This document shows positions 13,044 through 32,533 of a stretch of DNA of 32,677 bases, piece after piece. The stretch covers positions 1 through 32,677 of the forward strand of contig JABGYD010000087.1 of assembly GCA_018675425.1 (NCBI GenBank), in the 5' to 3' direction. How positions within the stretch are numbered: the stretch's first letter is position 1; each line of letters opens with the position of its first letter. Under the pieces are notes generated by a model. The model made no database searches. It saw nothing but the letters and a program-made list of their open reading frames with translations, and had not been told where the DNA came from. A program made the translations under genes and the position numbers. Source of the DNA: Kordiimonadaceae bacterium (GTDB lineage: Bacteria > Pseudomonadota > Alphaproteobacteria > Sphingomonadales > Emcibacteraceae).

Positions 13044-13364
13044 ATGATGAGCATTATTGCAGTAACAGACGGCGCCTTCGATAAAGAAGTGCTAAAATCA
13101 GATAAACCCGTAATTGTTGATTTTTGGGCAGAATGGTGTGGACCTTGCAAACAGTTTGGCCCTGTGTTTGAGGATGTATCAAATAAAGTAGGAGGCGTTG
13201 TATTTGCAAAGGTAAATATTGATGAAAATCCAGAAGCGCCAACAAAGTACGGCGTACGTGGCATTCCAACTTTACTTATGTTTAAGAACGGCGAAGTTGC
13301 AGCTATGAAAGTAGGCAACACTTCAAAAGGTGATTTTGAAGATTGGATTAAAGAGAACTCTTGA
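13044..13364 (+). CDS. trxA: thioredoxin
   Basis: Cytoplasmic dithiol oxidoreductase of 105-106 residues with the classic active site WCGPC at 31-35 (Cys32, Cys35), the buried Asp26 (VIVDFWA) and the cis-proline loop RGIPTL. No signal peptide. Two ATGs stand back to back (13044 and 13047); AGGA at 13036-13039 is 4 nt from the first and 7 nt from the second, so initiation at 13047 is slightly more likely. It follows addA as in many alphaproteobacteria and is convergent with the aminotransferase array. Confidence 0.97.
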   Translation: MMSIIAVTDGAFDKEVLKSDKPVIVDFWAEWCGPCKQFGPVFEDVSNKVGGVVFAKVNIDENPEAPTKYGVRGIPTLLMFKNGEVAAMKVGNTSKGDFEDWIKENS

Positions 13365-13379
13365 TTTTATTTAATTAAT

Positions 13380-13415
13380 AAGGGGCGTCATTTATAGTGA
13401 AGACCCCCTTTATTT
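13380..13415. terminator. bidirectional terminator between trxA and the aminotransferase array
   Basis: Stem AAGGGG-c-GTC (13380-13389) with GACCCCCTT (13402-13410), one bulged C and a 12-nt loop, flanked by AT-rich runs on both sides (TTTATTTATT on the + side). It lies between the convergent stops of trxA and the last aminotransferase. Confidence 0.75.
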
Positions 13416-13419
13416 ATTA

Positions 13420-14544
13420 TTAGCTAAAAAATTCCTTCTCATAAACCTCTACAAAAAACCTCATATCTTCAGGCCTAGCGGTACTTATACGCATCCAATC
13501 TAGTTTTGGTGGAAAGGGTCTGCCGATTGCAATACCGTGCTTTCTAACTCGATTATATACCTCTCTAGAATTCATGCCGGTTTCAAAGAAAGTGAAGTTA
13601 GCGTTTGATTTTATGTGGCGCATGCCGTGTTTATCAAATAAATCATATAATATTTGTAGCGCTTCCGCATTCTTACGCAAAACAAATTTTTGATATTGAG
13701 TATCCTTGTAACTTTCAATCGCGCCCCACATGGCGGGACCATTTATAGACCCTGTCATTAAGCTTTTAATTTTAGCAAGCATTTCAACAGAACCAAAACC
13801 AAAACCTATACGAATTCCTGCAAAAGCATGTATTTTTGATGCTGTGCGAGTAACTACTATATTCGGATATTCAGTAACCAGTGGCACCATGGTTTGATAA
13901 TTAGGGTCAATTACATATTCGTAATAGGCCTCATCGATAAAAACATAGCATTTTTGCGACATTTCCTTACAAAACTCTTTAAGTTTCTCTCCATGCATGA
14001 CCGTTGGAATAGGGTTGTTTGGGTTGCAGAGATAAATTATTTTCACATCATCCGTATAGGCAGCCCTCATTGCATCAAGATCTATTGATAAATCTTCTGC
14101 AACAGACACCCATATCTTTTCAATACCACGTTGGTTACTATAATCCATAAAGGTATCGTCATATGTGGGGTTTGGAGCAAGAATTTTACCCCCTTCCATA
14201 GCAACCATTAAGGCTATAGTTTTAAGTATTTCTCCAGACCCACCAGCAACCATGACATTTTTGGATGGAACATTTTCCATCTTAGAAATCAGATCTATTA
14301 GTGGTTTTTGTGCTCCGCCTCCGCCATATAAATGACCATGTTTATGGGCATTATGCATTGCTATACTTGCTTTTTTACTTATGCCATAGGGATTTTCATT
14401 CGAACTCATTCTGATAGGGTTTTCTGGCGTTGGTAAGTAACCGTCTATCGTTATGCTTTGTGCGTGAGCGTTTGCTGCAAGAGCTGCACTACCAACTAGG
14501 GCAGTGCTTCCAATGAGCCACTCACGTCTGGTTAATTTAGTCAT
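13420..14544 (-). CDS. Tat-exported HisC-like PLP aminotransferase, copy 1 (AT1)
   Basis: Predicted periplasmic PLP-dependent aminotransferase of fold type I, 374 residues. The Tat signal has TRREWL at 5-10, a hydrophobic stretch and likely cleavage after Ala28 (AHA/Q). The mature part has NENPYG (49-54), the Tyr73 of HLY matching the neighbouring-subunit PLP-phosphate tyrosine of HisC, GGSGE (101-105), NPNNP (174-178), DEAYYEY (Asp204), the PLP lysine Lys237 in TASKIHAFAG, Arg245, and the substrate-carboxylate arginine Arg352 (WMRIS). After Tyr73 comes a glycine run (GGGG). AGGGG lies 8 nt before the ATG. It is last in the array, 113 nt after AT2, with an 18-bp palindrome in that gap. HisC homology does not mean a role in histidine synthesis: export argues against it. 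Substrate unknown. Confidence 0.88.
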   Translation of the reverse strand: MTKLTRREWLIGSTALVGSAALAANAHAQSITIDGYLPTPENPIRMSSNENPYGISKKASIAMHNAHKHGHLYGGGGAQKPLIDLISKMENVPSKNVMVAGGSGEILKTIALMVAMEGGKILAPNPTYDDTFMDYSNQRGIEKIWVSVAEDLSIDLDAMRAAYTDDVKIIYLCNPNNPIPTVMHGEKLKEFCKEMSQKCYVFIDEAYYEYVIDPNYQTMVPLVTEYPNIVVTRTASKIHAFAGIRIGFGFGSVEMLAKIKSLMTGSINGPAMWGAIESYKDTQYQKFVLRKNAEALQILYDLFDKHGMRHIKSNANFTFFETGMNSREVYNRVRKHGIAIGRPFPPKLDWMRISTARPEDMRFFVEVYEKEFFS

Positions 14545-14594
14545 TTGATTTTCCCCTTACATTATTGTAATAATTAGGATAGCAAAATAGATAA

Positions 14595-14612
14595 ATTTTT
14601 CATATGAAAAAT
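14595..14612. repeat. perfect 18-bp palindrome upstream of AT1
   Basis: ATTTTTCATATGAAAAAT reads the same on both strands and is centred about 60 nt upstream of the AT1 start. It could be an operator or a hairpin; in AT-rich DNA chance is also possible. No second copy was found in the other array gaps. Confidence 0.4.
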
Positions 14613-14614
14613 AT

Positions 14615-14644
14615 AAAGGTATTGCTCTACAAAATGATACCTTT
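14615..14644 (-). terminator. weak terminator-like hairpin after AT2
   Basis: Inverted repeat AAAGGTAT (14615-14622) and ATACCTTT (14637-14644) with a 14-nt loop. On the minus strand it begins 14 nt past the AT2 stop and is followed by TATATTTTT, so it may partly terminate before AT1. The stem is A/T-rich and short. Confidence 0.4.
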
Positions 14645-14657
14645 AAATTTATTTCTT

Positions 14658-15782
14658 CTAACTTGTTATAAATAACTTCTGGTAAACTTGAGAGAAGTAT
14701 TCCATGTCTTCAGGTTTACCCATACTCACTCTACACCACTTTGTGAAAGGTGGGAATGGCCGACCAACTTGAACACCATTAGCCCTAAACATCTGTCTAA
14801 CTTTCTGTGCCTCTATACCCGTTTCAAAAAATACAAAGTTCGCATTTGACTTTATATATTTAACGTTATGTTTATCAAAAAGGGCATAAGTAATAGCGAG
14901 AGATTCTTGATTTTTTCGCCGACAATAATTTTGTGTTTCCGTATCTTTATAACTTGCGGCTGCACCAGCAACGGCTAGCTGGTTTGTGGATCCAGTCATG
15001 AACTCACGAAGTTTTTTAATCCATTTCTCCGTTGAATAAGCTATACCAAGACGAACGCCGGCAAAACCATGAATTTTTGAGGCCGTTCTTGCAACCATAA
15101 TATTTTCATTAGCAACAGCAAGAGGTACCATAGTTTCATAATCAGGGTTATTGACATACTCATGGTAAGCTTCATCGATAAATACTAGACATTTTTTTGA
15201 CATTTCAAGACAAAACTTACGAAGTTTATCTTTATGCATTACTGTTGGTAAGGGATTGTTTGGATTAACTATATATATTAGGCTAACATCATCAGTATAA
15301 GCTGCACGCATTGCGTCAAGGTCAATAATCATGTTTGCGTCAACAGGTACACGCGTAACTTTAACGCCGCGGCGTTCTGCATATCTTGTTAGATCATGGT
15401 AAGTTGGGTCAGATGTTAGAATTCTGCCACCTTCTATAGCTGTAATAAGTCCGAGAGTTTTAAGAATTTCGCCTGATCCACCAGAGAAGGTCAAATTTTT
15501 TGCTTCACAGCCCTCAATATTGGAAAGGACACTTATAAGTTCCATATAACGACCCCGGCCATATTCGTGGGCATGATCAAACATTTCTATAATAGCATTA
15601 CGAGCGGTTCTTGATAGACCATATGGATTTTCGTTTGTACCTAATCTAACTGGGTTATCAGCGGATGGTATAAAGCCGGGAACAGCCATATTTTGTGCAT
15701 CTGCACGACTACCTGCAACCATGGCAATGGCAAGAGCAGAGCTACCTTTTAACCAATCTCTTCTTGAAATATCATTTGTCAT
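14658..15782 (-). CDS. Tat-exported HisC-like PLP aminotransferase, copy 2 (AT2)
   Basis: 374-residue paralogue of AT1. The Tat motif SRRDWLKG (6-13) is the closest of the five to the S-R-R-x-F-L-K consensus; likely cleavage is after Ala29 (ADA/Q). PLP-site residues are intact: NENPYG (50-55), Tyr74 (HEY), GGSGE (101-105), NPNNP (173-177), Asp203 (DEAYHEY), Lys236 (TASKIHGFAG), Arg244, and carboxylate Arg351 (CRVS). The loop after Tyr74 is GRGRYM rather than the glycine run of AT1/AT3, and it extends three residues further at the C-terminus (LFITS). AGGA lies 8 nt before the ATG. The 116-nt gap before it may hold its own promoter. It shares a 27-nt identical DNA run with AT3. Substrate unknown. 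Confidence 0.88.
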   Translation of the reverse strand: MTNDISRRDWLKGSSALAIAMVAGSRADAQNMAVPGFIPSADNPVRLGTNENPYGLSRTARNAIIEMFDHAHEYGRGRYMELISVLSNIEGCEAKNLTFSGGSGEILKTLGLITAIEGGRILTSDPTYHDLTRYAERRGVKVTRVPVDANMIIDLDAMRAAYTDDVSLIYIVNPNNPLPTVMHKDKLRKFCLEMSKKCLVFIDEAYHEYVNNPDYETMVPLAVANENIMVARTASKIHGFAGVRLGIAYSTEKWIKKLREFMTGSTNQLAVAGAAASYKDTETQNYCRRKNQESLAITYALFDKHNVKYIKSNANFVFFETGIEAQKVRQMFRANGVQVGRPFPPFTKWCRVSMGKPEDMEYFSQVYQKLFITS

Positions 15783-15898
15783 TATATAGTCCTATCGCAT
15801 TAATTCAGTAAGCTATATTTAACCATAACAAACTTTCTTTAAATGTCACTCATTTCGTTTAAAAGGAAAAGACAGTCGAAATATGAAATTTAGAGTGA

Positions 15899-17023
15899 TT
15901 AATTCACAAACTCTTTTTCATAAACTTCTGCAAAGTAAGCCATATCTTCTGGTTTTGCCATGCTAACTCGTGCCCAAGTAATGAATGGGGGGAAGGGCCG
16001 ACCAATATTTATACCATTCCTTAAGAAACGGTCACGAACTTCTGAAAACTCTATGCCCGTTTCAAAAAATGTAAAATTAGCATTTGATTTAAAGTGACGG
16101 ACGTTATGTTTTTCAAATACTTTATAAACTTCTTGTAATGATTCCTCGTTTTTACGTTTAATAAAATCCATAAACTCATAGTCTTGATAAGCAGCAAGCG
16201 CACCGTATATAGCGGGTGTACCAACTGAACCTGTCACCCTCCGATTAATTTTGGTAAGTGTGGCCGGCGTTGAAAATGCAAAACCAACACGAACACCAGC
16301 AAAACCATGAATTTTTGACGCAGTTCTTGAAACAATAATATTATCATTCGTTGCTGCTATTTTTACCATGGACTCATAATTGGGGTCCGTAACAAATTCA
16401 TGATATGCCTCATCGATAAAAACAATACATTTTTTTGACATTTCAAGACAAAAGTCCTGAAGTTTGCCCTTCTCTAAAATGGTTGGCACAGGATTATTCG
16501 GATTGCAAAGATAAATAAGTTTTACGTCATCCGTATAGGCTGTGCGCATAGCGTCGAGGTCGGTTGTCATGCTTCTCTTATCGAGATCTACCCATGTAAT
16601 ATCCGTACCAACCCAATCACTATATCGAATAAGGTCGTGATAAGTGGGATTTGCTGCCATTACCTTTCCACCCTCAAGTGCAACAATAAGTGCTGCTACC
16701 TTTAATACTTCTTTTGAACCACTAGCAACTAGAATATTTTCTGATGCGACGCCATTTTGATCAGCAACAATTTTTATAAGCTCGCGCCTTCCACCACCCC
16801 CATATAGATGTGATGTTTTAAAACCATCGATCATTGCATTCTGAGCGGACCGCGGAATACCGTAGGGATTTTCGTTAGAGCTCATGCGAATGGGGTTTTT
16901 TGCGGTTGGAATATAGCCCTTTATTGTCAGGCTTTGCGCCTGAGCAGTAGTGGCATATGCCAGGCCTGCAGCTGCAAATGACGATGTGCCTCTTAACCAG
17001 TCACGTCTCGTTAATTCTTTCAT
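15899..17023 (-). CDS. Tat-exported HisC-like PLP aminotransferase, copy 3 (AT3)
   Basis: 374-residue paralogue. Tat motif TRRDWLRG (5-12) with likely cleavage after Ala29 (AQA/Q). PLP residues intact: NENPYG (50-55), Tyr74 (HLY, followed by GGGG), Asp204 (DEAYHEF), Lys237 (TASKIHGFAG), Arg245, NPNNP (174-178) and Arg352 (ARVS). The cofactor-phosphate region reads ASGSKEVLK (100-108), where AT1 and AT2 have GGSGE: a Lys replaces Gly. The C-terminal substrate loop is GRPFPPF as in AT2 and AT5. A good Shine-Dalgarno (AAGGA) lies 7-8 nt from the ATG. It starts the AT1-3 subgroup but is only 15 nt after AT4, so AT5-AT4-AT3 are surely one transcript. Confidence 0.88.
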   Translation of the reverse strand: MKELTRRDWLRGTSSFAAAGLAYATTAQAQSLTIKGYIPTAKNPIRMSSNENPYGIPRSAQNAMIDGFKTSHLYGGGGRRELIKIVADQNGVASENILVASGSKEVLKVAALIVALEGGKVMAANPTYHDLIRYSDWVGTDITWVDLDKRSMTTDLDAMRTAYTDDVKLIYLCNPNNPVPTILEKGKLQDFCLEMSKKCIVFIDEAYHEFVTDPNYESMVKIAATNDNIIVSRTASKIHGFAGVRVGFAFSTPATLTKINRRVTGSVGTPAIYGALAAYQDYEFMDFIKRKNEESLQEVYKVFEKHNVRHFKSNANFTFFETGIEFSEVRDRFLRNGINIGRPFPPFITWARVSMAKPEDMAYFAEVYEKEFVN

Positions 17024-17038
17024 ATTTTTTCCTTTAAA

Positions 17039-18166
17039 TTAAGAGAATTCTTTTTTGTAAACTTTAACCATGTATTCGGTTTCCTCTGGCTTAGCTGTAC
17101 TAATTCGGATCCAGTTAGGAAATGGATCATATTTTCTACCAATTAGAATGCCGGAATTACGCAGTTTAGCCCTTACTTCATTAGCATCACGTCCGGCATT
17201 TGCATAAACAAAGTTTGCATGTGCATTTACGTAAGGCATTTTAAGTTCATCAAACATTTTATAAAGAATGTTAAGAGATTCATAGTTTTTGTCGACAACA
17301 AATTTTTGATAGCCTGCATCTTGGTAACTCTCTATTGCACCCATAAGTGATGGGTGTGTCGTAGTTCCAGATCGAAACATAAGTAGTTTTTTTAAAGTAT
17401 CCGGATGAGCGAAAGCAAAGCCAACTCGAACATTTGCAAAGGCATGTATCTTTGAAGCCGTTCTTAGGACAACAATATTTTTATTATTTTTTACAAGATG
17501 AGCCATCGTTGAATAATTGTCGTCGCGGACATATTCATAATAAGCTTCGTCAATCACAATCATGGCTTTCTTTGAAAATTCTAGGCAGAATTCTTCAAGA
17601 ACATTTTTTTCAATTATACTTGGAATTGGATTGTTAGGATTAGAAAAATAAATACACGTTGTTTTATTGGTAATAGCTTTACGCATCGCTTCCATATCAA
17701 TAGACATATCCTCTGCAACAGGAACACTGATGACATTGGCACCAAAATTTCGTGCACTTCTAAGAATACTACCAAATGTGGGGTGGGGGGCAACTATGTC
17801 TCCTCCAGTTATGCCACAAAGTGCACCCGTCGCGACAAGATATTCACCTGAACCAGCACCAACTGCGATGTGATCTTCTGAAATACCCTCCATCTCAGCA
17901 ATAATCTTTATAAGTTGTCTTCCTGTTGTAAAATTATATGTATGGGCACGTTTGTATGCTTCAATAATCACTTTCATGGCTTTTGGATTTATACCATAAG
18001 GGTTTTCGTTATTAGTCATGCGAATAGGATTTTCTGGAGTAACCGCTTCCCCAAACGCAGAAAAATCAGAAATACTCTGGGCGGAGACATTATTTCCCAA
18101 CACTAAACCGCTAGTAACAGCTCCAGTCCCAACCAACCAGTCGCGTCTTGTTAAATTTTTTGTCAT
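17039..18166 (-). CDS. Tat-exported HisC-like PLP aminotransferase, copy 4 (AT4)
   Basis: 375-residue paralogue with a slightly longer segment after the signal. Tat motif TRRDWLVG (6-13), likely cleavage after Ala29 (VSA/Q). PLP residues kept: NENPYG (53-58), Tyr77 (HTY), GAGSGEY (103-109), NPNNP (176-180), Asp206, Lys239 (TASKIHAFAN), Arg247 and Arg354 (WIRIS). It diverges most where substrate would bind: NFTTGR instead of the glycine run after Tyr77, GRKYDPF in place of the GRPFPP loop of the other four, and Asn244 where the others have Gly after the lysine loop. AGGAG precedes the ATG. Groups with AT5 through shared SIIEKNVL and AHPD segments. Confidence 0.88.
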   Translation of the reverse strand: MTKNLTRRDWLVGTGAVTSGLVLGNNVSAQSISDFSAFGEAVTPENPIRMTNNENPYGINPKAMKVIIEAYKRAHTYNFTTGRQLIKIIAEMEGISEDHIAVGAGSGEYLVATGALCGITGGDIVAPHPTFGSILRSARNFGANVISVPVAEDMSIDMEAMRKAITNKTTCIYFSNPNNPIPSIIEKNVLEEFCLEFSKKAMIVIDEAYYEYVRDDNYSTMAHLVKNNKNIVVLRTASKIHAFANVRVGFAFAHPDTLKKLLMFRSGTTTHPSLMGAIESYQDAGYQKFVVDKNYESLNILYKMFDELKMPYVNAHANFVYANAGRDANEVRAKLRNSGILIGRKYDPFPNWIRISTAKPEETEYMVKVYKKEFS

Positions 18167-18181
18167 TCATTTTCTCCTATG

Positions 18182-19300
18182 TTAGCTATATTCTTCTTTG
18201 TATTTTTCAGCAAAATATTTCATTTCTTCAGGTTTAGTAAGACTGAGCCTTACCCAGTTTTTAAATGGAGGAAAGGGGCGACCTGTTAGGATATGATGTT
18301 TTTTCATAGTCTTTGCCACCTCAGTTGAAGTGCGACCAGCATTGAAGAATATAAAGTTTGCATTACTTTCAATATATTCAAGTCTCATATCATTAAGCAT
18401 TTTTGTAATAATAATCTGACATTCTTTATTCTTATGCTTGAGAAATTTTTGATATTCATAATCCTGATAGCTTGCGTAAGCGCCTCGCATTGCAGGGAGG
18501 TTGAGACTATTAGTAAACATCCCAAAGCTTCTTTTAATGAAGTCTGGATGGGCGTAACAAACTCCAATTCGCATACCTGCAAATGCATGTATTTTGGATG
18601 CAGTGCGTGTAACTATGATATTTTTGTTTTCTTTAACAAGACTAATCATACTTTCATAATTGGGATTATCCACATACTCAAAATAGGCTTCATCTATAAG
18701 GACTGTAGCTCTTTCTGACATTTCATTACAGAATTCCTTGAGAACATTTTTTTCTATGATAGAGGGTATTGGGTTATTGGGGTTGCAAAGATAAATGAGT
18801 TTGGTGTTATCTGTCATTGCCGCCCTCATAGCGTCAAGATTAATATGCATGTCATCGCCTACCGGGACCTCTATAAGTTTTGACCCTAAAGTACGTCCAA
18901 AGCGAGCAAGGTCTCCGTATGTTGGAATAGGTAACAATATATCGCCACCCGCTACGGCATTAAACACAGCAGCTTTTTCCAGAAACTCTGTAGATCCAGC
19001 ACCTAAAGCTACATACTTAGTTGGAATGTCTTCAAGTTTAGCCATAAGAGCTTGCAGGGCAAGTAGGTCACGAAATGCATATTTATGAGAATCCTTAGCT
19101 GAACTGGCAATAGCCTCTCGTGCTTTGTGAGACTGACCATAAACATTTTCATTAAAATGGGCCCGAATAGGATTTTCTGCGGTCGGGTTTACGTTGGGTT
19201 CCATAAAGTTCTGGGCTGAAACGGGTGAGCCAGAAATAAGTAATCCACTAGCAGAAGTAATGCCAGCAAGCCACTCACGGCGAGAGAATTTTATTGTCAT
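18182..19300 (-). CDS. Tat-exported HisC-like PLP aminotransferase, copy 5 (AT5), first in the array
   Basis: 372-residue paralogue and the first transcribed of the five. Tat motif SRREWLAG (6-13), likely cleavage after Ala29 (VSA/Q). PLP residues kept: Tyr74 (HKY), GAGSTEF (100-106), NPNNP (173-177), Asp204 (DEAYFEY), Lys236 (TASKIHAFAG), Arg244, Arg351 (WVRLS). The N-terminal substrate segment is altered: FNENVYG (49-55), with Val where AT1-AT4 have Pro in NENPYG, and it is preceded by AH instead of MSS or MTN. AAAGG lies about 10 nt before the ATG. The 89-nt gap upstream, after the quinoprotein gene, is very AT-rich and shows no terminator, so read-through from that gene is possible. Confidence 0.87.
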   Translation of the reverse strand: MTIKFSRREWLAGITSASGLLISGSPVSAQNFMEPNVNPTAENPIRAHFNENVYGQSHKAREAIASSAKDSHKYAFRDLLALQALMAKLEDIPTKYVALGAGSTEFLEKAAVFNAVAGGDILLPIPTYGDLARFGRTLGSKLIEVPVGDDMHINLDAMRAAMTDNTKLIYLCNPNNPIPSIIEKNVLKEFCNEMSERATVLIDEAYFEYVDNPNYESMISLVKENKNIIVTRTASKIHAFAGMRIGVCYAHPDFIKRSFGMFTNSLNLPAMRGAYASYQDYEYQKFLKHKNKECQIIITKMLNDMRLEYIESNANFIFFNAGRTSTEVAKTMKKHHILTGRPFPPFKNWVRLSLTKPEEMKYFAEKYKEEYS

Positions 19301-19389
19301 GCTTATTATGCCTTTGTTTTCTAATTATTTTTTAAATACAATATAAAGCTTATTATTAATCAATCATAATTACTATTTATTTACTCTTA

Positions 19390-20508
19390 TTATTCAGAAT
19401 ATGTCAGCCTATAAATTGCATTGGCCTCGTCATCGGCTATTAATAAGCTCCCGTCTTTGAGCTCAAGAATATCCGATGGTCGGCCCCAGGCCTTATTATT
19501 TTGCAAGAAGCCAGTAATAAAAGGTTCATAACTAACGGCTTTTCCATTTTGGATAGTAACAAAAGTTAACATATGGCCAGTGTGGCCAGCCTCATCTGTC
19601 CTATTCCAAGAACCATGTTCAGCAATTATAATATTATTTTTATATTTGGAGGGGAACATGTCGCCCTTATAGAATGCCATGCCGATAGCGCCAGCGTGAG
19701 GAGCAAGTTTCTGTGCAGGAGCTATATAGTCCTCGGCTTTTTTTTCAGTACCATAGTTTGGGTCCTGTGTATCACCTTGGTGGATATAGGGATATCCAAA
19801 ATGAAGGCCGCTTTTTGGAGCATGGTTTAGCTCGTCTGCAGGCATTTCGTCACCTAGACCGTCACCACCATTATCAGTAAACCAAAGATCATCTGTTTTG
19901 GGGTCCCAGTCAAATCCTACCGTATTTCGAATGCCCATAGCATATTTAGTTATTCCTAACTCTGGATTGTTAATATCTAAAGTATTTAAGGTAGCAAACT
20001 CTTCCTCCGGCTCGCAGATATTACATGGCGCACCAATAGGTATATAGAGGAGCCCATCTGGGCCAAATTCTAAAAATTTCCAGCCATGGTGTGTTTTGTC
20101 GGGAAGGTTAGAAAAAATTACTTCTGGATCTGGTTTATTACGATAACTGTTTTCAATGTTACTAATTTTGTAGATACGACTTATGGCGCCAATATAGAGG
20201 TCTCCGTTATGATAAGTTAGGCCGGAGGGCCTTTTAAGTCCGCTTGTTATAGTAATTACTTCATCTGCCTTACCGTCCCTATTTGCATCTGGAATAGCAA
20301 AAATTCTCCCACCCGCACGACTTCGGGTACCAACGTAAACGGTGCCATCATCGCCCAATGACATCTGCCTAGCATTTCGAACATTAGCATAAATCTCGAT
20401 GGAAAAACCATCAGGTAAAATCAGTTTATCAACTTCTTGACTTTGGATATGTGGAGCCGTCATCGTTAGGGCTAATAAGGTAAGTGAGGCTAGAATATTC
20501 TTATACAT
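19390..20508 (-). CDS. secreted PQQ-type sugar/sorbosone dehydrogenase-like protein
   Basis: Predicted periplasmic beta-propeller of the soluble quinoprotein glucose/sorbosone dehydrogenase family, 372 residues. The start at 20508 is chosen because AGGAG lies 7 nt before it and it yields a clean Sec signal peptide (MYKNILASLTLLALTM, cleavage near residues 23-24); an ATG at 20544 would add 12 residues and spoil the signal. Family features: LPDGFSIEIYA, RAGGRIFAI, HHGW with candidate catalytic His (140/141), GPDGLLYIPIGAPCNIC with a CxxC (162-165), GIRNTVGFDW (Arg194, Asn195), AEHGSWNR and WGRPSDIL. Whether it really oxidises a sugar is not shown; some members are structural or bind other ligands. 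It lies 40 nt after serB and 89 nt before AT5, same strand. Confidence 0.8.
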   Translation of the reverse strand: MYKNILASLTLLALTMTAPHIQSQEVDKLILPDGFSIEIYANVRNARQMSLGDDGTVYVGTRSRAGGRIFAIPDANRDGKADEVITITSGLKRPSGLTYHNGDLYIGAISRIYKISNIENSYRNKPDPEVIFSNLPDKTHHGWKFLEFGPDGLLYIPIGAPCNICEPEEEFATLNTLDINNPELGITKYAMGIRNTVGFDWDPKTDDLWFTDNGGDGLGDEMPADELNHAPKSGLHFGYPYIHQGDTQDPNYGTEKKAEDYIAPAQKLAPHAGAIGMAFYKGDMFPSKYKNNIIIAEHGSWNRTDEAGHTGHMLTFVTIQNGKAVSYEPFITGFLQNNKAWGRPSDILELKDGSLLIADDEANAIYRLTYSE

Positions 20509-20548
20509 TGTTTGGCTCCTAATAATATTATTAAACAATAGCATAAAG

Positions 20549-21424
20549 TTAGCTATCTACAAAATCACTTAATGTATAACCCTGCAAGTAAAGTAACGCG
20601 GTAAGGTCACCGTGTTTGATTTTAACGTCCGAAGCTTGTGCTGTCGCAGGGTAGGGGTAATAACCGACCCCAATTCCAGCGCCCAGGAGCATTGGGATAT
20701 CGTTTGCGCCATCCCCAATGGCAATAGTTTCACAGTTTTTAAGGTTTCCCTTTTTTTGAAATTGACGCAGAGTTTCTATTTTTGTGTTTGCATCAACAAT
20801 AGGTTTTTTAACTTTTCCTGTTAATTCACCATTTTTATGAAGCAATATATTTGCATAGTTTGCTTTGAAGCCCGTAGCTTTAGATACTCTTTCGGTGAAG
20901 TATGTAAAGCCGCCAGATATAAGAACGGTGTTTGCACCATTAGCGTTCATAGTTCTGACCATAGTGATTGCTCCTGGGTTAAGTTTTACTCGTTCATTAA
21001 AAATAGTTTGAAGGTTGGCTATGTTTAAGCCCTTTAACAAGGAAACTCTCTCGTTTAATGCATCTTCAAAATTAATTTCCCCACGCATAGCAGCTTCTGT
21101 AATAGGGGACACTTTTCCTTTTATGCCAAGGAAGTCAGCGATTTCATCAAGGCACTCTACGTTTATAATAGTACTATCCATATCCGCTATTAAAAGTTTC
21201 TTGCTGCGGGTTAATGGATCCTGAAAAGCATAATCTAGATTTTCTGCTTCAAGCATATGCAGAATTTCACCTGGGGCCTCATCATCAAAGTAAATATCGA
21301 GGGCAATATTTCTATTTAGCCAATTACAATGACTAGCATTTAATAGGCTGACATACTTATCTTTGATTTTATTAGATACAGCAGCATCTTGAGTGTTAGA
21401 AATAAGGGTAAGTACCTGGTTCAT
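20549..21424 (-). CDS. serB: phosphoserine phosphatase
   Basis: HAD-family phosphatase releasing L-serine from phosphoserine, the last step of serine synthesis; cytoplasmic, no signal. 291 residues: an N-terminal ACT-like region (1-70), then catalytic DMDST (Asp81 nucleophile, Asp83), VECLDEIADFLG cap region, LISGGF and the final GDGANDIPML metal motif. It is divergent from miaA across a 72-nt gap, as in other alphaproteobacteria. The quinoprotein gene follows 40 nt downstream, so serB could be first in the transcript that enters the accessory block, though this may just be insertion of the block behind a core gene. Confidence 0.95.
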   Translation of the reverse strand: MNQVLTLISNTQDAAVSNKIKDKYVSLLNASHCNWLNRNIALDIYFDDEAPGEILHMLEAENLDYAFQDPLTRSKKLLIADMDSTIINVECLDEIADFLGIKGKVSPITEAAMRGEINFEDALNERVSLLKGLNIANLQTIFNERVKLNPGAITMVRTMNANGANTVLISGGFTYFTERVSKATGFKANYANILLHKNGELTGKVKKPIVDANTKIETLRQFQKKGNLKNCETIAIGDGANDIPMLLGAGIGVGYYPYPATAQASDVKIKHGDLTALLYLQGYTLSDFVDS

Positions 21425-30700: not shown

Positions 30701-30793
30701 CCTTTAAAAGTAAAACTATTTGAGTTTACATAGCCGGACTTATTGGTTTAGTGTGAATTTATTATGTTTATGAAATTTTTTAAGGGAAAAATA

Positions 30794-32533
30794 ATGTGTA
30801 AAATGTTTAAACTGTTGTTAATCACCGTCTATGTGGGATCATTTTCTTTTGTGCCTGCAAATGCTCAGGGTGAATATAAATTACCAAGCTACAGTTCACG
30901 GGACGGCTTTGTTCCAGTAGTAGGTAAAAATGGTATGGTTAGCGTCAGAGAAACTATTGCAGCTGAAATAGGTGCTGAAATTCTTGAAAAAGGTGGGAAT
31001 GCGATTGACGCTGCTGCCGCAGTTGGATTTGCTCTTGCAGTTACCTATCCGCAGGCGGGTAATATTGGAGGAGGCGGTTTTATGATCGTCCATACTGCTA
31101 AAAATAATACAACAGTGGCTATTGACTACCGTGAGATGGCTGCAGGTACAGCTCGTCATGACCAATACGTGATTGATGACAAAGTTGACCAAAAGTTGGC
31201 AAAATTTAGCCGTCAATCCTCAGGTGTACCCGGAACTGTTGCCGGAATGGCACTTGCTGTTGAAAAGTATGGAACGATGAGTTTAAGAGAGGTTCTGGAG
31301 CCTGCTTATAAATTGGCAAACAAAGGGTTTAAAATTTACACTCAACTTGAAATGTCACTCGCTCGCAGTAAGGAGCGCCTTGGTGCGGACCCAGCAGCGG
31401 CAAAAGTTTTCTATAAGGCCGATGGGAGCAATTATAAAACTGGTGAAATTTTAAAACAAAAAGACCTTGCTAAGTCACTACGGGCTATTATGCGGCAGGG
31501 GACTGACGCCTTTTACAAAGGGGAAATTGCAGAAAAAATTACAGCTGACATGGCGGCAAATGATGGCTTGATTACAATGGCTGATATGGCTGCTTATAAA
31601 GTATACGAACGTGAACCTGTATATGGAACTTACAAAGGATACAAAATAGCTACTATGCCTCCGCCTTCGTCAGGGGGAATGCATATGATACAAATGATGA
31701 ATATGCTGGAAAATGATGATCTAAAGGCACAGGGACACAATAGTGCGGCCACCCTTCATCTTTATATTGAAGCAATGCGCCAAGCTTATGCTGACCGCAG
31801 TCTTTATGCTGGTGACCCAGCCTTCTTTAATATTCCTGTTGATAAGTTGATTAACAAAGAATATGCCAAAGAAATTCGTGCTCGTATTCCATTAGATCGT
31901 GCCCGGGTAAGCGCTGAAGTTGCTCCAACGAAAAACCTTGCCTATGAAAGCCCAGAAACAACTCATTATTCTGTGATGGATAAGTGGGGGAATGCGGTAA
32001 GCAATACCTATACGCTTAACTTTGGTTTTGGTAATGGTATTATGGCAGAGGGAACAGGTATACTGCTTAATAATGAACTTGACGATTTTGATCATGAGCC
32101 ATACAAGCCTGACGCCAACGGTAATGTTAGTGGTAAAGCTAACGCCCAGGAACCATATAAACGCCCTAGATCATCGATGACCCCAACTATTGTTTTCAAG
32201 GACGATATGCCATTTTTAATCACTGGTAGCCCAGGTGGAGGAACAATCATCAATACCGTCTTTCAAACAGTTATGAATGTGATTGAATTTGATATGAATG
32301 TGGCTGCTGCAAGTAGTAAGCCGCGAATAAATCATCAATGGATGCCAGATATGACTACTATCGAAAGTGGTGTCAGTCAGGATACTCTGAATATACTCAC
32401 TGATATGGGTCATAAATTTAATTCTGGACGTCGGACACTTGGCAGCACAAATAGCATCGTTTATCGTGACGGTTACTTTTATGGTGCCCACGATCCACGC
32501 AGCATGAACGCTGCGACGATTGGTATTAATTAA
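30794..32533 (+). CDS. ggt: gamma-glutamyltransferase (gamma-glutamyltranspeptidase), secreted
   Basis: Periplasmic Ntn-hydrolase that releases or transfers the gamma-glutamyl group of glutathione and other gamma-glutamyl compounds. The ATG at 30794 is chosen because AAGGGA lies 6 nt upstream; it gives 579 residues and a Sec signal ending at Ala24 (ANA/Q). The proenzyme self-cleaves before Thr389 in ETTHYSV, giving the small subunit with a new N-terminal threonine. Also seen: substrate-site DYREMA, PPPSSGG, and the oxyanion/glycine segment GSPGGGTIINTV. An in-frame ATG at 30764 would put ten extra, charged residues before the signal. Terminated by the hairpin just after the stop. Confidence 0.95.
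   Translation: MCKMFKLLLITVYVGSFSFVPANAQGEYKLPSYSSRDGFVPVVGKNGMVSVRETIAAEIGAEILEKGGNAIDAAAAVGFALAVTYPQAGNIGGGGFMIVHTAKNNTTVAIDYREMAAGTARHDQYVIDDKVDQKLAKFSRQSSGVPGTVAGMALAVEKYGTMSLREVLEPAYKLANKGFKIYTQLEMSLARSKERLGADPAAAKVFYKADGSNYKTGEILKQKDLAKSLRAIMRQGTDAFYKGEIAEKITADMAANDGLITMADMAAYKVYEREPVYGTYKGYKIATMPPPSSGGMHMIQMMNMLENDDLKAQGHNSAATLHLYIEAMRQAYADRSLYAGDPAFFNIPVDKLINKEYAKEIRARIPLDRARVSAEVAPTKNLAYESPETTHYSVMDKWGNAVSNTYTLNFGFGNGIMAEGTGILLNNELDDFDHEPYKPDANGNVSGKANAQEPYKRPRSSMTPTIVFKDDMPFLITGSPGGGTIINTVFQTVMNVIEFDMNVAAASSKPRINHQWMPDMTTIESGVSQDTLNILTDMGHKFNSGRRTLGSTNSIVYRDGYFYGAHDPRSMNAATIGIN

Follow-up and report, generated by a model that had tools for sequence, protein, structure and literature searches.

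In a 32,677-nucleotide stretch of DNA from a Kordiimonadaceae bacterium (contig JABGYD010000087.1 of assembly GCA_018675425.1; hereafter the window), five adjacent genes on the minus strand encode aminotransferases that resemble histidinol-phosphate aminotransferase (HisC) and begin with signals of the twin-arginine translocation (Tat) type. The reading that we favour with moderate confidence, judging from the sequences, is that this array is a bank of alpha-amino acid:2-oxo acid transaminases which Tat exports to the periplasm and which have diverged in substrate range. Transamination is usually taken as a cytoplasmic process, and a fixed array of four to eight such genes, kept throughout a genus, would imply sustained amino-group chemistry outside the cytoplasm. 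The array also offers a compact set of paralogues for asking what extracytoplasmic amino-group chemistry is for.

The five open reading frames (ORFs), lettered A to E starting from the side of the thioredoxin gene trx (Table 1), all start with ATG and all match the aminotransferase class I/II profile PF00155, at 119-146 bits against a cut-off of 19.7. A preliminary description made from the letters of the window had reported five adjacent minus-strand aminotransferase genes, each with a Tat motif, a cleavage site and the residues that bind pyridoxal 5'-phosphate (PLP), and the coordinates, the profile and the motifs agree with it. Copies B to E are only 46-55% identical to copy A and are therefore diverged paralogues, not recent duplicates. 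In order of transcription the intergenic gaps measure 15, 15, 116 and 113 bp, and the GSDH-type gene lies 89 bp before copy E; a promoter and terminator scan of the array yielded no excess over shuffled sequences (25 vs 27.2; 6 vs 6.5).

Table 1. Coordinates of the aminotransferase array, its presumed signal peptides and the genes at its two ends
Feature	Position in window	Strand	Remarks
Copy A, Tat-type aminotransferase	13420..14544	-	374 aa; trx-adjoining orthologue group; PF00155
Copy B, Tat-type aminotransferase	14658..15782	-	374 aa; PF00155; modelled, nearest solved structure 3ly1
Copy C, Tat-type aminotransferase	15899..17023	-	374 aa; PF00155
Copy D, Tat-type aminotransferase	17039..18166	-	375 aa; PF00155
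Copy E, Tat-type aminotransferase	18182..19300	-	372 aa; PF00155
Presumed Tat signal peptide, copy A, residues 1-28	14461..14544	-	TRREWL, AHA/Q
Presumed Tat signal peptide, copy B, residues 1-29	15696..15782	-	SRRDWL, ADA/Q
Presumed Tat signal peptide, copy C, residues 1-29	16937..17023	-	TRRDWL, AQA/Q
Presumed Tat signal peptide, copy D, residues 1-29	18080..18166	-	TRRDWL, VSA/Q
Presumed Tat signal peptide, copy E, residues 1-29	19214..19300	-	SRREWL, VSA/Q
Thioredoxin gene (trx)	13044..13364	+	PF00085; fixed array boundary, a flank outside the system
GSDH-type propeller protein	19390..20544	-	PF07995, 66.1 bits; possible partner only

All five window copies carry the context [ST]-RR-x-W-L with the arginine pair within residues 6-8, followed by a mildly hydrophobic stretch (mean Kyte-Doolittle hydropathy 0.3-1.25) and, by motif, a presumed cut at [AV]-x-A/Q after residue 28 or 29. 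The first 60 residues of the other window ORFs of at least 100 aa hold no Tat motif (0/26). Across the 13 genomes of the genus, the RR motif stands in 78 of the 82 copies of at least 340 aa and an A-x-A/Q-like site in 74 of the 82; two of the four copies without the motif start at a contig edge, one reads KR and one has RR in a poorer context. The genome of the window contains tatC (C56:35569, 228.3 bits), whose neighbours resemble tatB and serS by eye, the tatB-like ORF having no NCBIfam match at E 1e-40. The Tat-type signals noticed in the preliminary description are thereby found in every copy of the window and in a genome that has tatC, and it is from these motifs that we infer export of the array proteins by Tat.

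The sets of PLP-binding residues had been described as complete, and the wider comparison bears this out. The catalytic lysine lies at 237, 236, 237, 239 and 236 in copies A to E, and NPNNP, IDEAY, RTASK and the tyrosine of H-x-Y are identical across all five. K237, D204, Y207, NPNNP, R245, R342 and R352 (copy A numbering) are kept in all 76 sequences assigned to the eight orthologue groups described below, the window's five copies included; one long-branched copy (G007_L106_7) and five of the six dispersed copies lie outside this set. The catalytic-motif pattern was matched by 77 of the 82 copies of at least 340 aa, the five misses being two copies with APK or TTSK for T[AFS]SK and three dispersed copies with NPDNP. 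R342 and R352 align with what we take to be the substrate-anion-binding arginines of HisC, which fits a carboxylate substrate; the pair, which HisC keeps too, would point to substrates bearing an acidic group, most simply alpha-amino acids. Position 239 is His in 76/76 array copies and in four gammaproteobacterial relatives, and Tyr in PtaA and in the genome's own hisC product. An AlphaFold2 model of copy B (50-sequence alignment) reached a mean pLDDT of 91.3, low mainly in the first 33 residues, and Foldseek placed 3ly1 first (TM 0.84 by query length, 2.0 Å), followed mostly by HisC enzymes. The same 3ly1, a putative HisC of Erwinia carotovora, is the nearest solved sequence.

A search for homologous arrays, suggested in the preliminary description, covered 60 relatives (window's genome included) and gave strong matches in all 13 genomes of the genus, with four to eight copies and trx as the constant neighbour. 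The main array counts four copies in G012; five in the window's genome (G000), G006 and G011, and five in G003, where it is cut by a contig end; six in G001, G008 and G009, and in G005 as 3+3 on two contigs; seven in G010, in G002 as 1+6 on two contigs and in G004 with one copy cut; and eight, the largest number, in G007. The best matches in 19 family genomes of other genera stayed at E 2e-47 or weaker, the level of ordinary HisC, and among 28 further genomes of the order three had a single match (E 1e-67 to 3e-74). Because it recurs in all 12 other genus genomes searched, the array is more than a chance arrangement, and recent amplification or an assembly artefact is excluded by the divergence of the copies together with the same array in those 12 genomes.

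The position of the array is likewise conserved. It is adjoined by trx in 12/12 other genus genomes, and GSDH-serB-miaA stands at its other end in eight of the 12, the remaining four being cut by contig ends. Between array and GSDH gene, a peroxiredoxin-like gene occurs in six of the nine genomes where the stretch is visible and an outer-membrane-barrel-like gene in seven of eight (calls profile-tested in locus L109 only); neither is present in that stretch in G011 and the window. In five sister-genus genomes (L125-L129), trx is followed, directly or one gene later, by folC/accD/trp-like genes (by eye), with no array within the 19 kb read after trx. Given this different gene set in the sister genera, the array site would have arisen by rearrangement, and the trx/array/serB/miaA junction (window 13044-21424) seems to be a rearrangement confined to the window's genus. 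The surroundings of the array had been described as an otherwise core region, and profiles identify tsaE, trx, serB, miaA, an acetolactate-synthase-like thiamine pyrophosphate enzyme and ilvC there, and addB and addA were recognised by eye.

A tree of 89 proteins, from which one copy of 179 aa was omitted, yields the groups A, B, B2, C, C2, D, E and F, which are colinear along the arrays as A-B-(B2)-C-(C2)-D-E-(F); B2, C2 and F are present in other genus genomes and not in the window. Copy A has an orthologue in 12 of the 13 genomes, G012 being the one where it is missing. Over the same 76 sequences, mean identity across the genus is 69-82% within groups and 41-62% between them (70% for B/B2). 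One of the two D-type copies of G002 groups with the sole D-type copy of G005, which indicates that the G002 pair split long ago and is not a recent duplication. G007 has an additional E-like copy (L106:13555-14757), which sits on a long branch, has a poorer RR context and is perhaps decaying or fast-evolving. In a single comparison, window against G011, dN/dS (NG86) of the five copies is 0.062-0.100, and that of the flanking genes is 0.069 for trx, 0.099 for GSDH, 0.129 for serB, 0.148 for miaA, 0.139 for addA and 0.108 for addB. The window's five copies are under strong purifying selection, stronger than that on addA and addB.

Beyond the genus, genomes of about 85,000 species were scanned, and the best 80 matches (77 loci) contain arrays in this genus only; among these matches, Gammaproteobacteria and some other genomes have single copies, and Acidobacteria-type metagenome-assembled genomes (MAGs) have pairs. 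In a 75-protein tree, in which the row ARR_G007_L106_3 was trimmed at an internal site and rows without a detected motif were left untrimmed, the array and the dispersed genus copies form one clade (99/95), sister to a gammaproteobacterial clade; PtaA with PRK09105 (100/100) and HisC (100/99) are placed apart from the array. Matches at E 1e-60 occur in 5/384 other genomes class-wide and 15/397 phylum-wide, at two or fewer per genome, and as at most five and four candidates respectively were scored per genome, these figures bound arrays rather than count them. An aminotransferase on a Flammeovirgaceae-labelled contig is nearly identical to one on a Gammaproteobacteria-labelled contig and has the same neighbours (L037/L038), probably a binning error.

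The preliminary description had read the genes as a periplasmic transamination module for several related substrates, a view that the analysis bears out in part. Folding with PLP, export and periplasmic transamination is, by analogy with PtaA and PvdN, which Tat exports with PLP bound, the most likely course for the array proteins. They would take up PLP while folding in the cytoplasm, be carried in the folded state through the inner membrane by Tat, with loss of a signal peptide of about 28-29 residues, and perform ping-pong transamination in the periplasm, where an amino compound would turn PLP into pyridoxamine 5'-phosphate (PMP) and a second 2-oxo acid would turn PMP into PLP; since this second half-reaction restores PLP, no fresh cofactor would be required. 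Transamination is here presumed over other PLP-dependent reactions. The copies would keep the same chemistry and differ in substrate range, taking amino acids or amino-acid-bearing compounds, and from groups that are diverged and separately conserved we infer different substrates for each copy. In a review, PtaA is described as a PLP transaminase exported folded with its cofactor by Tat and active in the periplasm, an activity presented there as a surprise and with its cofactor recycling left open, while Tat transport of PvdN is said to require PLP binding in the cytoplasm (PMC6206403). Another Pseudomonas aeruginosa aminotransferase, PA2531, appears in a table as having a Tat signal, which was detected in that study (PMC6085387).

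Several observations weigh against a bank of diverged transaminases. Positions fixed differently between groups are few (17, by the filter used); relatives elsewhere have no single consistent neighbour, but a TonB receptor, DUF885, FAA hydrolase, propellers or housekeeping-like genes; and the fold also hosts decarboxylases, cyclases and oxidases, with CobD structures further down the Foldseek match list of the copy B model. The small number of group-specific positions, the identity of the catalytic residues in 76/76 and a copy number ranging from 4 to 8 within the genus would suit a dosage array, in which every copy carries out one and the same periplasmic transamination and multiplication serves quantity or condition-specific expression. 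We nevertheless consider this unlikely, as the groups diverged deeply without homogenisation (41-62% identity between most of them), their order is fixed and each of the window's copies is under separate purifying selection. The versatility of the fold bears on the reaction itself: the enzymes might use O2 or decarboxylate in the periplasm, like PvdN or PLP oxidases, instead of being transaminases. For PvdN, which is a PLP enzyme exported by Tat, a decarboxylating oxygenation is described (PMC7497351), and CobD and GntC are among the weaker family matches of the array, CobD also among the structure matches. Such a reaction appears quite unlikely to us, given that the best sequence and fold matches are named histidinol-phosphate aminotransferases (3ly1 being only putative) and that the HisC-type catalytic residues are kept. 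PvdN is not named among the 55 solved sequences matching copy B at E 0.001, nor among the best 60 of 102 for copy A (E 10), no PvdN sequence having been compared directly.

It is very improbable that the five are ordinary cytoplasmic histidine or aromatic aminotransferases with N-termini that merely look Tat-like. They do belong to the HisC superfamily and match NCBIfam hisC (TIGR01141) at 192-208 bits, but this is under the 276.55 cut-off, and they form a clade with other Tat-type proteins, apart from HisC; the RR motif is kept in 78/82 genus copies. A separate hisC, above the cut-off at 314.7 bits, lies on contig C76 and adjoins a gene for prephenate/arogenate dehydrogenase (NF005694, 479 bits). 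A role in histidine synthesis, already thought unlikely in the preliminary description, is rejected for the array on account of the sub-cut-off scores, the hisC at C76 and the distinct clade. The genome (G000; 2.2 Mb in 94 contigs, 99.6% complete) holds two more HisC-like genes, at 270.8 and 253.6 bits just below the cut-off of 276.55, with N-termini that lack the RR motif. Siderophore tailoring, as by PtaA in pyoverdine maturation, is scarcely credible as the function of the array, even though PtaA is the nearest characterised exported relative found. The array scores 171.4-189.7 bits with the PtaA profile NF051461, far under its 500-bit cut-off (control protein L143, 685.4); the tree places PtaA in another clade; and the nonribosomal peptide synthetase condensation domain PF00668 has 0 matches in the window's genome, so that membership in PtaA is ruled out. 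With PRK09105/NF006580 the array scores 190-229 bits, under the cut-off of 444.

The gene next to copy E raises one further proposal, quite unlikely in our estimation: a genus-specific extracytoplasmic transamination in which diverged transaminases, possibly as mixed dimers, would be coupled to the GSDH protein as an exported propeller dehydrogenase. Oxidation of sugars or aldehydes would then supply 2-oxo acids as amino acceptors, so that PMP would be recycled to PLP outside the cytoplasm. In alignment, the window GSDH protein keeps a His and an Arg-Asn motif, presumably as in pyrroloquinoline quinone (PQQ) aldose dehydrogenases, and its only solved match is a putative oxidoreductase (E 7e-5). 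Of seven other family genomes tested, one has a GSDH relative (E 1e-136), which does not adjoin an aminotransferase; among four genomes of the order's other families, two have weaker matches. Propeller genes adjoin Tat-type aminotransferases at some distant loci. In the alphaproteobacterium of L162, the aminotransferase is overlapped over 11 bp by a GSDH gene that also has a match to cytochrome c and whose protein lacks the aligned His stretch; this upstream gene had been taken at sight for DUF885, an assignment rejected on the profile. An NHL propeller gene follows within 20 bp of the aminotransferase in another alphaproteobacterium (L158) and stands beside a tandem aminotransferase pair in Acidobacteria (L059, L065), and in a Gemmatimonadetes MAG (L046) a GSDH gene in convergent orientation is 244 bp from the aminotransferase. 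A tandem pair with an NHL propeller is also seen in L066, labelled Acidimicrobiia; its near identity in the tree to L059 (Vicinamibacterales) means that one of the two labels may be in error.

Neighbours were tallied over 36 loci outside the genus, chosen with the aim of representing each apparent synteny group once, of which L055 was dropped for ambiguous residues in its aminotransferase ORF, leaving 35. The near set comprised 84 ORFs of at least 130 aa within 350 bp (33 loci), and the control 140 ORFs (27 loci) drawn at random from 372 lying 3.5-9 kb away. NHL accounts for 6/84 near ORFs and GSDH for 2/84, in a tally that names no loci, includes some ORFs that are spurious overlaps and owes several of its NHL matches to related Acidobacteria loci. 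Neither family is among the five with at least two members in the far control (25 of 127 families listed), where a lone match may still exist, and the far set also contains one match to the PQQ propeller family PF01011. No propeller was seen among the individually scanned gammaproteobacterial neighbours (L028, L033, L040, L042, L043). These counts hint weakly at a beta-propeller gene, GSDH or NHL, as a recurrent neighbour of Tat-type aminotransferases.

Other neighbours are more scattered. A TonB receptor gene lies directly upstream in Pseudohongiella-type loci (profile-tested in L028), and dispersed copies related to group F adjoin an FAA-hydrolase-family gene in two genus genomes (L112:8384-9451/9454-10572 and L116:589-1659/1782-2900; PF01557 tested in L112), its N-terminus being signal-peptide-like. 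A DUF885 gene directly adjoins the Tat-type aminotransferase in a genus genome (L113:7990-10814) and on a contig labelled Marinimicrobia (L039:2624-5349); these two loci, with weak M20/M28 peptidase matches by a gene in L043, faintly suggest peptide use as the role of the Tat-type aminotransferases. At L115:8534-11228 a SoxC-like molybdenum oxidoreductase gene and a dispersed genus copy run towards each other, and a small gene there gives a weak haem-binding-domain match below the curated cut-off. Breakdown of sulfur amino acids is a faint suggestion from this locus and from L037, L038 and L040, which carry a gene of the same cluster a little downstream, but the SoxC-like neighbour occurs in no array. 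In the window itself, a gamma-glutamyltranspeptidase gene lies at 30764-32533, 11 kb off the array; the substrate of PtaA is a glutamyl residue with free alpha-amino and alpha-carboxyl groups.

Overall, the array shares with PtaA of Pseudomonas its superfamily and, by analogy, PLP transaminase chemistry and Tat-type export, whereas PtaA stands in a separate clade with PRK09105, is described for pyoverdine and contrasts with four to eight tandem copies. PRK09105/NF006580 matches the array over nearly the full length including the N-terminus (E 5e-56 to 1e-67), and itself yields one or two matches per genome (E 1e-70) in 21/398 Pseudomonadota genomes. HisC, represented by 3ly1, is alike in fold and catalytic residues, from which the array departs by its Tat-type N-termini, its sub-cut-off score and His239. 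The single-copy Tat-type proteins of Gammaproteobacteria (Woeseiaceae, Pseudohongiella and others) form the sister clade and are 41-44% identical to copy A (38% for the truncated relative L045), with one copy per locus and neighbours unlike those of the array; we know of no characterised member of this clade. The Acidobacteria MAG pairs (L058, L059, L065) resemble the array in having adjacent RR-motif copies from an old duplication, but they number two only and belong to another clade. The preliminary description had known of no characterised system of this kind, and among the titles and abstract openings listed by searches of the open-licence literature on the subject, none describes such an array. 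Periplasmic PLP transaminases are known already, while what appears to be undescribed is a genus-wide, colinear bank of four to eight copies in a clade of its own.

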